From assembly GCF_027497215.1 (NCBI RefSeq), contig NZ_CP114904.1, positions 4,176,001-4,240,000 on the forward strand: 64,000 bases of DNA. The letters run 5' to 3'. A program made the position numbers and the translations under genes. This document shows, piece by piece, positions 42,473 to 45,639 of the stretch. The notes below the pieces were generated by a model that searched no databases, had not been told where the DNA came from, and saw only the letters and a list, made by a program, of their open reading frames with translations. The stretch comes from Micromonospora sp. WMMD812. Lineage in GTDB: Bacteria; Actinomycetota; Actinomycetes; Mycobacteriales; Micromonosporaceae. The number at the start of each line of letters is the position of its first letter. The stretch's first letter is position 1.

Positions 42473-42806
42473 GGCTCGCTACACGGTTTAGGAAGTGTGG
42501 ACACGGCCGACACTCGCGGAGCGCCGACCTGGCTTGACCTGCGCCGCCATGCCGGCCGCCACGTCCAGGAGCTGACCGCCGTTGACCCTCAGGTCCCGTC
42601 CCATCGGGCACGCGACGGCACGCCCGCACTTCCCTGCCTTGCAAAGATCAATACTGTTGTCGGCTGGTGTCGGCCGCTGCCGCTGACCTGCTCGACTTGT
42701 CGGCTTCCGTCGCTCGCCACTCCTGCTTTTCGGCCGGCTTGGCTGCATGGTTGGCTGTACAACGAGGCTACGGATGGGGTAGCAGGCACCTCGTACGGTT
42801 GACGGG

Positions 42807-43784
42807 GTGTTGTTCGAGCCGGTGACTGCGGAGCTGTCGTTCGAGGACGACGGGAACGAGCTGATCGGCGATTTCGTCCGGCCGCCATGGCCGGGTCCGT
42901 GCCCGGCAGTGGTCTTCGTCGAAGGTTCTGGTCCGGGTGGTCGCAACCAGGGGCCGTGGCAGACGAGGCTTGCCGCCGCCGGCTTTGCGAGCCTCGCCTA
43001 TGACAAGCCCGGTTCTGGAGACTCAACGGGCGATTGGACCCGTCAGACCATGGCCGACCGCGCTGAGGAGACTGTGGCTGCGGTCCGGGCGGTGAGAAGC
43101 CGCGAGGACGTGCTATCCGGTGCGGTCGCGCTGATCGGCGGCAGCCAGGGAGGCTGGGTGGCTCAACTCGCGGCGTCAGCCGACGACAGGATAGCGGCGG
43201 TGGTGACGGTGTCAGGTCCGGGCGTGAACGCGCGAGCTCAGGAGGAGTACCGGCTCCGCCACCAACTCGCGGCGGAGGGCTTCAGCAGCGCGGACATCCA
43301 GCAGGCGCTTGTTCTGCTACGCGACCAGGTCCAGCGGGTTCAGTCAGGCGACGACCCCGCGCGAGTGCACGCCGCGCAAGCGCACTGGCATGCCGCCCCC
43401 TGGTATCCGCTACTCGCTGGAACAACACCCCGGTCCATCGCATTCATCGCGGGCATCGCGGACTACGACCCTGCCCCTGCACTGGCAGCTCTAAATTGCC
43501 CGCTGCTGGCAATCTTCGGCGCAGATGACCTGCTGGTGCCGGTAGAGGCGAGCGTGCGCGCCATCAGCAACACCCTCAAGGACGCTGGCCATACCGATCA
43601 CGCGATGGTGGTCTTTCCCGGTGCTGACCACAACATTCGCGTCTACACGGGCAAGGGACCCGCGCAGGTCAAGCAGGGTCGCTACACCCCTGCCGAGAGG
43701 GCTGCGGGTTTCGACGAACTCATCGTCACCTGGCTACAGCGCCGCTTGCCGCTGGGACCTGATCTCCTCCTCGGGCAGTCGTAG
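42807..43784 (+). CDS. Alpha/beta hydrolase (dienelactone hydrolase-like)
   Basis: The 325-aa protein has the nucleophile elbow GGSQGG (Ser113), an oxyanion turn VEGSGPGGR, acid candidate FGADDLLVP, and His in GADHNIRV. The layout fits acyl-peptidase/dienelactone-hydrolase-like esterases. TACGGT lies 7 nt before the GTG, so it may be leaderless. Its G+C is below that of core genes and it sits in the tRNA-Thr accessory strip, so recent acquisition is likely. It is followed 10 bp later by hairpin A. Confidence 0.87.
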   Translation: MLFEPVTAELSFEDDGNELIGDFVRPPWPGPCPAVVFVEGSGPGGRNQGPWQTRLAAAGFASLAYDKPGSGDSTGDWTRQTMADRAEETVAAVRAVRSREDVLSGAVALIGGSQGGWVAQLAASADDRIAAVVTVSGPGVNARAQEEYRLRHQLAAEGFSSADIQQALVLLRDQVQRVQSGDDPARVHAAQAHWHAAPWYPLLAGTTPRSIAFIAGIADYDPAPALAALNCPLLAIFGADDLLVPVEASVRAISNTLKDAGHTDHAMVVFPGADHNIRVYTGKGPAQVKQGRYTPAERAAGFDELIVTWLQRRLPLGPDLLLGQS

Positions 43785-43793
43785 ATCTTCCGG

Positions 43794-43860
43794 CTTCCCC
43801 GGACGGGGACAAGGTGGAGCGCCCTGCCGGACGTACGACCTTCGTCCCCGTCCGGTGAAG
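43794..43860. repeat. Hairpin A: conserved-loop structured repeat
   Basis: Left arm 43794-43815 pairs with right arm 43838-43860 (one mismatch, one bulge; CCGGACGGGGAC then AAGGT). The 22-nt loop is GGAGCGCCCTGCCGGACGTA plus CG. The loop is almost identical to that of hairpin B at 44770, but the distal stem sequence differs. It lies 10 bp after the hydrolase stop. Confidence 0.8.
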
Positions 43861-44035
43861 CTGGTAGCCCTTGTGGTGCCCGGCGAGGTGATCCGCGCGG
43901 CTGATCTCTGAGGAGGGCCGGGGTTCGGGGCGGAGCCCCGAGGTCTTGTAGTCCTGGTCGTCCCCAGGCATGGCCGGCCGGCCCGGCCGATGCCGGCCGG
44001 AGGTCGCCAGCAGGCCGGGGCCAGGCCGGCGCCGC

Positions 44036-44191
44036 CTTGACGTGTACGCGGGACTGTTCGGTGACGACCTGGACGCGGTCGCCAACCGGCTAGACGAGGC
44101 GGTCACAGCGCGGGACAAGGACTATCTAAGGACTGGCACTGCTGGCGGCGAGTTTGTCGACCTTGGAAAACGGCGAAGCCCAGGCCGGTGA
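44036..44191 (+). pseudogene. Integrase C-terminal relic (older copy)
   Basis: Fifty-one codons match the end of the integrase at 44856-45548: LDVYAGLFGDDLDAVANRLD, the catalytic Tyr included, through LGKRRSPGR and the same stop. The identity begins abruptly at 44036, so all upstream domains are missing. It sits next to a partial tRNA copy in the same arrangement as the second integrase next to the intact tRNA. Confidence 0.85.
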
Positions 44192-44208
44192 CCTGGGCTT
44201 CTGTACCG

Positions 44209-44250
44209 AGCCGCCTGACGGAATCGAACCGTCGACCTACGCATTACGAG
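44209..44250 (-). other. Partial tRNA-Thr copy (attachment-site scar)
   Basis: These 42 bp are identical to 45566-45607, the 3' half of tRNA-Thr from the anticodon loop to the last base. Upstream flanking DNA (from about 44164) also matches. Identity stops at the anticodon loop (ATTACGAG), a usual crossover site of tyrosine recombinases. It marks the distal end of an integrated element. Confidence 0.88.
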
Positions 44251-44435
44251 ATCAAGGTAGGCGGGTCTGCAACCTGCCCGCATGTGCAGCTACCAGCGAA
44301 GACGCTTCTCGGCATCTTTCACCGCTCCCCCGCAATCCACCGACCTCTTGCGGACTGGATGCGGACTGACCCGCTGGTCGGCACGCCCACACTCGTCCCG
44401 CGATTAGGCCCAACTGACATCGCCCTTCGGCACCG

Positions 44436-44693
44436 CTACACGCGCCACTCCTGTCGGTAGTCGGGGTGCTCGTAGTAGGACTGCGCCAGCACTCGGACCG
44501 CGTACGCGAGACCAGCGAAACGCTCGTCAGAGGGGTCCATCGCCTCGTACTCCCGTGCCAGCATCTCGACCAGGTCGAGCATCGGCAGGTGGCTGTCGAG
44601 CAGAGCTTCACCGCCGAACCGGTGGGCCACCTCGGCATAAGCATGGTTGTCCGCCTCGTAGCGGGCATGAAGGAACCGCAGGAGATCTTCCAT
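44436..44693 (-). CDS. DUF6221-like protein
   Basis: The 85-aa protein begins MEDLLRFLHARYEADNHAYA and ends YYEHPDYRQEWRV, which resembles DUF6221 proteins common on actinomycete plasmids and integrative elements. The central part is shorter than usual. Function is unknown. It lies between the partial tRNA and the truncated integrase, i.e. within the scar of the younger element. Confidence 0.65.
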   Translation of the reverse strand: MEDLLRFLHARYEADNHAYAEVAHRFGGEALLDSHLPMLDLVEMLAREYEAMDPSDERFAGLAYAVRVLAQSYYEHPDYRQEWRV

Positions 44694-44769
44694 CCGCCGA
44701 TTCTCGCGCGCCGCCACGCCGCTTACTCGCTGCCATCCCGTCTGCCGCCGACCCACACACCGTGGAGCG

Positions 44770-44837
44770 GGCCAGGGCCAGGGCGACAAGGTGGAGCGCC
44801 CTACCGGACGAACGACCTTGTCGCCCTGGCCCTGGTC
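44770..44837. repeat. Hairpin B: conserved-loop structured repeat
   Basis: Left arm 44772-44792 and right arm 44815-44835 form a perfect 21-bp stem (CCAGGGCCAGGGCGACAAGG plus T); two more pairs extend it outward. The 22-nt loop GGAGCGCCCTACCGGACGAA plus CG differs from hairpin A at two positions only. It abuts the truncated 5' end of the integrase relic. Confidence 0.85.
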
Positions 44838-44855
44838 TGCTCGGCTCTGCCTGGG

Positions 44856-45548
44856 TCGGAGGGCGTGCGGCTGCCTCGGGTGGTTCGGGAGGAGCCGGTG
44901 TTTCTCGACCACGACCAGGTGGCGAGGCTCGCGGAGGCGTGCGGGCGCTATAGGTTGCTGGTGCGGGCCCTCGCCTACACCGGGCTGCGGTGGGGTGAGG
45001 CGTCAGCGCTGCGGGTGTCGCGGCTGGACCTCCTGCGGCGTCGGGTGACGGTCGCCGTGGCGTTCGCCGAGGTTGGCGGAGAGCTGGTCGAGGGCACGCC
45101 GAAGAACCATCAGCGCCGTTCGGTGCCGATCCCGCGCTTCCTCGTCGACGAGCTGGCCGCGCACGTGGCCGGCAAGCGCCGGGACGAGCTGGTGTTCACC
45201 GCGCCAGCCGGCGGGCCGCTGCGCAACACCAACTTCCGGTCGCGAGTCTTCGCGCCGGCAGCGGCGTCGGTCGGGCTGGCCGGGCTGACTCCTCACGATC
45301 TGCGGCACACGGCCGCGAGTCTGGCCGTGGCGGCGGGTGCGAACGTCAAGGCGGTGCAGCGGATGCTTGGGCACGCCTCGGCGTCGATGACGCTGGACGT
45401 GTACGCGGGGCTGTTCGGTGACGACCTGGACGCTGTTGCCAACCGGCTGGACGAGGCGGTCGCGGCGCGGGATGCGGACTATTTGCGGACTGGCACGGTT
45501 GGCGGCGAGGTTGTCGACCTTGGGAAACGGCGAAGCCCAGGCCGATGA
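44856..45548 (+). pseudogene. Tyrosine recombinase/integrase, 5'-truncated
   Basis: The catalytic domain is present: GLRWGEASALR with the first Arg, HDLRHTAASLAV with His-x-x-Arg, LGHASASMTLDVYAG with the His and the nucleophile Tyr. The core-binding N-terminal domain is missing; recognisable sequence begins at SEGVRLPRVV, just after hairpin B. The gene ends 17 bp from tRNA-Thr, the classic place for an integrase of an element integrated there. Likely non-functional because about half of the protein is lost. Confidence 0.85.
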
Positions 45549-45557
45549 CCTGGGCTT
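45533..45557. terminator. Integrase terminator hairpin
   Basis: AAGCCCAGG (45533-45541) pairs with CCTGGGCTT (45549-45557) around a 7-nt loop that contains the integrase stop codon. The same hairpin is copied at about 44176-44200 beside the older relic. Confidence 0.65.
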
Positions 45558-45565
45558 CTGTACCG

Positions 45566-45639
45566 AGCCGCCTGACGGAATCGAACCGTCGACCTACGCA
45601 TTACGAGTGCGTCGCTCTAGCCGACTGAGCTAAGGCGGC
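45566..45639 (-). tRNA. tRNA-Thr(CGT)
   Basis: Reading the minus strand, acceptor arms GCCGCCT and AGGCGGC pair, the D arm has TTAGCTCAGTCGGCTAGAGC, the anticodon arm ACGCA-CTCGTAA-TGCGT gives anticodon CGT (Thr, codon ACG), and the T arm GACGG-TTCGATT-CCGTC is standard. Discriminator is T. No CCA is encoded. Its 3' half has served as an attachment site at least once, as shown by the copy at 44209. Confidence 0.96.

Follow-up and report, generated by a model that had tools for sequence, protein, structure and literature searches.

The window, by which we mean the whole 64-kb stretch of Micromonospora sp. WMMD812 DNA that was analysed, contains a tRNA-Thr gene beside which integrase fragments, a hydrolase gene and two long hairpins, A and B, are laid out as follows.

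42632–42761 (+): attP-like block (CTGCCTTGCAAAGATCAA...), left of the cargo gene of the hairpin A unit; similar blocks lie in 10 other loci
42807–43784 (+): cargo gene, alpha/beta hydrolase (ORF; Pfam Abhydrolase_1, 9.6e-14)
43761–43777 (+): module A outer stem, 5' arm (GATCTCCTCCTCGGGCA)
43794–43860 (+): hairpin A (H), inner stem and conserved loop, 28-nt core at 43813–43840; candidate single-strand origin
43877–43893 (+): module A outer stem, 3' arm (TGCCCGGCGAGGTGATC)
43903–43948 (+): accessory hairpin region on the 3' side of module A (GATCTCTGAGGAGGG...GGAGCCCCGAGGTCTT); by eye, conserved among type A copies
43971–44035 (+): module A GC-rich S segment preceding the nick motif
44036–44039 (+): CTTG, 5' half of a presumed double-strand origin (dso) nick site; the remainder of D is missing and an integrase interior is joined on
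44040–44180 (+): integrase C-terminal fragment (DVYAGLFGDDLD...); 44036–44185 is 88.7 % identical to 45393–45542
44180–44250 (+): att repeat, a copy of the integrase 3' end and the 3' part of tRNA-Thr, 98.6 % identical to 45537–45607
44436–44699 (-): DUF6221 gene (Pfam)
44732–44755 (+): module B outer stem, 5' arm (GCCATCCCGTCTGCCGCCGACCCA)
44770–44837 (+): hairpin B (H), inner stem and conserved loop
44852–44859 (+): module B, remnant of the 3' outer arm (TGGGTCGG); the module ends about here, by comparison by eye with full type B copies
44860–45548 (+): integrase fragment without its N-terminal part, fused to module B (Pfam Phage_integrase, 4.3e-22, in ORF 44466–45548)
45565–45639 (-): tRNA-Thr(CGT), the integration target (ARAGORN)

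The core of the attP-like block was seen to resemble a tRNA-Ala anticodon arm, followed by an arm with GGCTGTAC-like repeats (tRNA identity judged by eye), and the hydrolase stop codon falls inside the 5' part of module A. A preliminary description of this DNA had reported two hairpins with a near-identical loop on differing, compensated stems, and both were confirmed in position as in structure. The two 22-nt loops are identical except for one G/A and one T/A difference; hairpin A has a 1-nt bulge near the loop and hairpin B is ungapped. RNA folding of the + strand gave z-scores of -6.60 for A and -9.66 for B, values that none of 200 shuffles equalled. The loop pattern matched twice in the window (0.00 expected) and, allowing ≤3 mismatches, twice in the whole 7.13 Mb genome, both copies being those in the window. 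A reading of KVVRPxGRSTLSP in the minus frame, also noted earlier, was reproduced, as this is the minus-strand reading of the loop and lies in ORFs of that strand which run over both hairpins. The minus-strand ORF 44436–44912, which runs across hairpin B, is the DUF6221 gene, and its N-terminal extension through the hairpin is probably spurious. Rfam gave just weak miRNA-model matches below the gathering score over H in the window, and five loci carrying H or D gave no matches at that score other than RNase P and tRNA.

Our study revealed that the two hairpins are the inner part of a larger module of ~190–330 nt, which the preliminary description had overlooked. The order is an outer stem enclosing H, then one or more GC-rich hairpins, then a conserved element, D, which reads CTTGAT-N4-AAGAG-N4-ATTCGGCA. 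The outer stem differs in sequence between types, with both arms still matching (by eye), and D follows a foot hairpin of varying sequence in types A, B and F. CTTG stands directly after the foot hairpin in 47 of 48 distinct feet (two letter patterns), the exception being L025, where it comes four letters later; the next base at these feet is always A (42 AT, 4 AC and 1 AA). A loose D pattern gave 77 distinct matches, among them a few chance matches (e.g. L025 minus, L050 plus and L164 minus), and none in the reversed control. A stricter pattern gave 53 distinct D copies, 50 of them with 1.2 kb of upstream sequence, within which H lay on the same strand in 45, on the opposite strand in none, and no loop was found in five. 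For one of these five, L083, H was found at 1452 nt upstream. The loop is inverted relative to S and D at three loci (L026, L049 and L093), and the interval between H and D can contain various genes.

Variants of this arrangement were also observed. At L240 (-) the place of H, 244 nt upstream of D, is taken by another hairpin, of 28 bp and with an 11-nt loop, which is possibly a second class of single-strand origin (sso); L237 and L239 have another hairpin ~740 nt upstream of D, and no such hairpin was found upstream of D at L236 and L241. At L043 (-) 108, the outer stem is of type B but the hairpin inside it and its loop are wholly different. The H loop is broken at GGACGA and continues as GTCTCAAT(A/G/C)GCGG(T/C)TGTCAA in three loci that between them have two stem types (L058 4261, L071 (-) 2423 and the L178 (-) 4949 region). 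A TGTC-type end was seen 18–20 nt after D, across a spacer that is itself variable. We take these ends to resemble IS21-type ends; 18 D copies were listed with one, three of them doubtful (L056, L121 and L182) and the others, in which it begins 19 or 20 nt after TTCGGCA, being L151, L170, L165, L050, L145, L142, L166, L168, L074, L071, L042, L083, L097, L174 and L241. They may represent targeted insertion or repeats that belong to the origin.

The claim in the preliminary description that selection acts on the folded structure was supported by two lines of evidence. The covariation set comprised 65 of 114 distinct in-register copies (alignment A1), across which standard pairs filled 97.5 % of stem cells, compared to 68.6 % in shuffles, and 22 of 25 stem pairs had changed on both sides. 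The covariation score was 0.706 against 0.155 in shuffles, none of 500 shuffles being as high and a slid alignment giving ≤0.145, and mutual information per stem pair was 0.81 bits against 0.04. The loop was the most conserved part of H across the aligned copies. As copying from arm to arm could also yield compensation, strand asymmetry was used as a second test, in which a G.U pair on one strand is an A.C pair on the other. Over 121 distinct stems there were 69 G.U and 18 A.C, and after collapse to 17 clusters 38 and 17 events, respectively (p 0.006). Types A and B jointly had 50 G.U and 9 A.C; type C stems, mainly from Asanoa, had 1 G.U and 5 A.C and were without the + strand bias. The G.U excess in AICE-type copies points to the + strand as the one that folds, as RNA or as single-stranded DNA.

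Few copies, or stem changes left uncompensated, had been named beforehand as speaking against the preliminary reading of the hairpins; across the family the copies are numerous and compensated, the genome of the window itself having only two. The loop pattern was present in 107 of 300 genomes of the family, with 0 reversed-control matches in every row listed, and a scan of named genomes gave at least 119 stretches in Micromonospora, Asanoa, Actinoplanes, Nonomuraea, Actinomadura, Streptomyces and others. Within Micromonospora, 85 of 108 genomes contained D, the reversed control again giving 0 in every row; across the class D was present in 51 of 246 genomes, none of which belongs to family f19, and the reversed control matched once, in a single genome. 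One Micromonosporaceae-scan region (G050:C1:3883426-3947539) carries five loop copies at ~16-kb spacing, perhaps a tandem array of one element. The type B module was present in 14 plasmid records and the type A module in none; no viral contig contained an exact match to the loop pattern, and no phage a type A module.

The plasmid search identified an intact type B module (97 % coverage, 83.4 % identity) in pMR2 of Micromonospora rosaria, an 11.2-kb rolling-circle AICE plasmid with an integrase, an excisionase (Xis), a RepSA initiator and an FtsK-like protein. Its module, with both H and D, lies just past int and the tRNA-like att region, and its loop differs from the commonest loop at six places. 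The pMR2 Rep matched RepSA (PF20199, 2.7e-98) and REP_ORF2-G2P (PF23343, 2.5e-07); Rep_1 (PF01446), the family of the pC194 initiator, was not reported for it by Pfam at E 0.01. Relatives of this Rep occur in 67 of 108 Micromonospora genomes. Of 60 RepSA hits with ≥800 bits in this genus, 50 were entered into a linkage test, where D lay upstream on the same strand in 36 (at 3.7–18.5 kb), downstream on the same strand in one and on the opposite strand in none, 13 having no D.

Outside the family, RepSA was present in 44 of 48 D-bearing genomes, where hits were split into MR2-like and SAM2-like by Pfam score, with cut-offs set after the gap between them was seen. D lay upstream on the same strand, at 2.2–10.4 kb, of 48 of 67 MR2-like RepSA, a fraction that is biased because the genomes were picked for having D, with 19 lacking D and none having it on the opposite strand; the contrast with the SAM2-like hits in the same 48 genomes, where the figure is 0 of 43, is unbiased. 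Counted from the side of D, RepSA was so placed for 50 of 82 copies, and the other 32 had no RepSA listed within 20 kb. Genus g65 of family f19 was taken for Streptomyces because an S. tendae plasmid has nearly the same loop variant. Here 11 of 16 H places lay 5.1–8.8 kb upstream of RepSA on the same strand, the remaining five having no RepSA within reach on the contig, and in 11 of the 16 H was followed by a hairpin and CTTGATGARGTAGAGAAAC-like letters, another variant of D (SAM2-type). The CTTGATGARGTAGAGAAAC-type pattern was found at 19 places in 10 of 26 genomes searched, all of them in g65, and RepSA lay downstream on the same strand at 14 of the 19 (by eye, from coordinates); it was absent from the 14 searched genomes outside g65, some of which have SAM2-like RepSA. 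H was thus found with both MR2-like and SAM2-like elements. Two RepSA groups with two right halves behind one CTTGAT, and H common to both, are what a Rep-specific dso combined with a Rep-independent sso would be expected to give.

Several published observations bear on this pattern. Passages of PMC3218068 state that pSAM2 has a dso nicked by its RepSA, that te Poele et al. assigned pSAM2 to the pC194 family, partly by its nick site, and that RepSA forms two subfamilies, SAM2 and MR2, of which the Streptomycineae AICEs have only the SAM2 type; for RepSA-MR2, a shared nick mechanism and discrete dso binding regions were predicted. In part of PMC5037232 the pC194 dso is given as TATTAT|CAAGATAAGAAAGA, whose complement is CTTG|ATAATA, and mobilisation is proposed for genes that lie between dso and sso; an excerpt of PMC10378824 gives CTTGATA as the conserved dso nick site. 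An sso is described as active on the leading strand only and in one orientation (PMC5703833, in part), as is orientation specificity for the ICEBs1 sso (PMC4595007, in part). The portions of the literature searched, including those of PMC3218068 and with the older pSAM2 origin papers outside their scope, held nothing on second-strand synthesis of the AICE displaced strand or on the RepSA-MR2 nick site.

On this evidence we favour, though not with certainty, the reading that the window hairpins are decayed copies of the origin module of RepSA-type rolling-circle AICEs. That D is the double-strand origin is highly likely, and H is probably the single-strand origin, an assignment we make with more reserve. 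No relative of the pMR2 Rep was found in the genome of the window and the D pattern matched there at a single place, far from the window (G000:C1:6143663-6143689); the window therefore shows remnants. We infer nicking at D, priming at H and the role of Rep as joining enzyme from sequence comparison. Under the proposed mechanism, the GC hairpin and CTTG|AT of D would form the dso that RepSA nicks, and H, just upstream on the same strand, would be exposed last on the displaced leading strand. There it would fold into a long hairpin whose conserved loop would be recognised by a host priming factor, so that second-strand synthesis would begin at H, and the stems would be free to drift while pairing holds, as the loop would not. 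For copy A, Rep would have linked an element, at its CTTG end, with a CTNG|A-like site inside an integrase gene, by illegitimate termination or one-ended transfer; copy B would have been cut at the outer stem by some event.

The joint in copy A is one of 15 distinct cases in which S stops at CTTGA[TC] and the remainder of D is missing, the search pattern having included A[TC] and left the native letters in front free. For nine of the 15, representing at most seven places, a homolog covered or nearly reached the joint, and in eight of these nine the native letters in front were CT[GC]G or TTGG. These letters were CTGGAC or TTGGAC in the window, where the other integrase has CTGGAC at the place matching the CTTG of copy A (45393), and likewise CTGGAC or TTGGAC at L123, in a rep gene. 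They were CTGGAY at L049 and L122 and CTGGAY or CTCGAC at L078 and L171, each pair having a common place and possibly being one event; CTCGAC or ATCGAY at L081; CTCGAC or CTCGAG at L091; and CTCAAT or CTCGGT at L178, a poor case. A homolog across the joint was lacking in the other six, stopping short at L125 and being absent for L006, L022, L093, L108 and L116. At the third letter the element supplies T and the gene has G or C; the following G and A are common to both, which would place the break after the third letter; this is consistent with a break at CTTG|A, although it is not fixed to the base. Other truncations of H are not at CTTG (window copy B, L007, L095, L260 and L262). The earlier suggestion of a mobile element or recombination site was in part correct, in that AICEs are the carriers of the module and integrase interiors are found fused to its CTTG end.

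The copies in Asanoa (genus g18, by identity of L079 with G052) bring into question whether H belongs to replication at all. Loop copies number 16, 4 and 5 in genomes G088, G110 and G101, in none of which RepSA was found, and no D was found in the 6–7 kb surrounding 20 copies (G088 and G052). The gene contexts of these 20 were convergent in 10 and tandem in 10, with none divergent, and REP elements likewise avoid divergent contexts. At one Asanoa locus H is present or absent between species, the element missing from the orthologous locus in four genomes with flanks too diverged for exact ends. H could on these grounds be a REP- or MITE-like palindrome that hitch-hikes on AICEs, with D as the origin and H having no replication role. 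However, H has a fixed orientation upstream of two different D variants, the AICE-type stems are strand-biased, the wider set of 86 copies with both neighbours called includes 16 divergent contexts, and no target-site duplication was seen at H by eye; we regard this explanation as unlikely for H in general. The Asanoa copies themselves look like REP repeats and may either have arisen from the origin hairpin as a by-product or have been its source.

A transcribed structure, acting at the AICE end as terminator or insulator or else as a structured RNA whose loop binds a protein, would account for the G.U bias as well as single-stranded DNA does; stop codons often lie just ahead of the module, and the upstream gene is co-directional with H in 57 of 99 copies (by our own ORF caller). 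A terminator near one end of Tn916 serves as an insulator, according to part of PMC11658703. Yet no T-run was seen by eye behind the stem in the H copies compared, as an intrinsic terminator would have, and such a terminator has no need of a 28-nt conserved loop, nor does it explain the fixed place beside D. A terminator scan found one weak site in the window region (44881–44897), away from the hairpins, and none in one Asanoa region, although it scores only loops of 3–8 and H is beyond its reach. The free-standing structured RNA considered in the preliminary description is disfavoured, as the position of the module follows that of rolling-circle rep genes, with a fixed orientation, and no Rfam match to it reached the gathering score in the loci searched, and we consider a transcribed role of either kind improbable. 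Lower still do we rate H as clt, the cis-acting transfer locus. Streptomyces plasmid clt loci are short direct repeats, whereas H consists of one long hairpin whose pairing is strand-biased, as would suit single-stranded DNA rather than double-stranded translocation; in favour, H sits on an AICE carrying FtsK (pMR2), and FtsK-like Tra proteins bind clt (PMC3218068, in part).

Further candidates were dropped. Integron-like cassettes and IS200/IS605-like ends with TTGAY targets, suggested at first by the CTTGA joints and cargo genes, were set aside as D is linked to RepSA and the E block resembles an AICE attachment site. An integron attC site would have an integron integrase close by and a variable apical loop, whereas here the loop is the most conserved part and the recurrent neighbours are AICE-type tyrosine integrases (by eye). 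A guide-RNA reading, with the integrase fragment as guide after a scaffold, found no nuclease family among the recurrent neighbours (by eye), and RepSA linkage explains the joints.

Returning to the origin module, a bolder and tentative proposal is that RepSA initiators drive gene shuffling, whereby segments of cargo, H and CTTG would be moved by Rep and joined at CTNG|A-like sites of other elements and sso-cargo-dso cassettes would pile up beside tRNA genes, H being the first sso class described for AICEs and common to several families. One sso candidate and two dso candidates make AICE second-strand synthesis and the RepSA-MR2 nick site testable, and with them the replication and reshuffling of the self-transmissible elements of soil actinobacteria. 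The module is also a marker for AICE ends and remnants and explains a class of spurious short proteins, and joining by Rep would offer a mechanism for truncated integrase genes beside tRNA genes.

In comparison with known systems, H is like ssoA, ssoU, ssoT, ssoW and ICEBs1 sso1 in being a long leading-strand hairpin near the dso, in fixed orientation and with various rep types. It differs from the ssos of rolling-circle plasmids and from ICEBs1 sso1 in sequence, in its one 28-nt apical loop on freely varying stems and in its AICE context, and its function is a predicted one. D shares the CTTG|AT nick motif with the dso of pC194 and pUB110, but here the initiator is RepSA (PF20199) rather than Rep_1, a GC hairpin stands directly before the motif, and two conserved right halves match two RepSA groups; the SAM2-type right half may be the nick region already mapped for pSAM2. 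The HUH transposons IS91 and ISCR target CTTG or GTTC and likewise have a hairpin and then CTTG at the end that abuts the target, whereas no IS91-like transposase was seen by eye among the recurrent neighbour families here and the linked rep gene is RepSA. REP and BIME sequences are, like the Asanoa copies, dispersed palindromes that avoid divergent promoters; in Micromonospora and g65, unlike these, H is linked and oriented to RepSA. Closest in layout are the DSO-gene-SSO elements of qacC and lnuA, as described in part of PMC5037232, in which genes lie between sso and dso as they do between some copies of H and D, whereas here they lie in AICE islands of the chromosome and CTTG is joined to integrase and rep genes.
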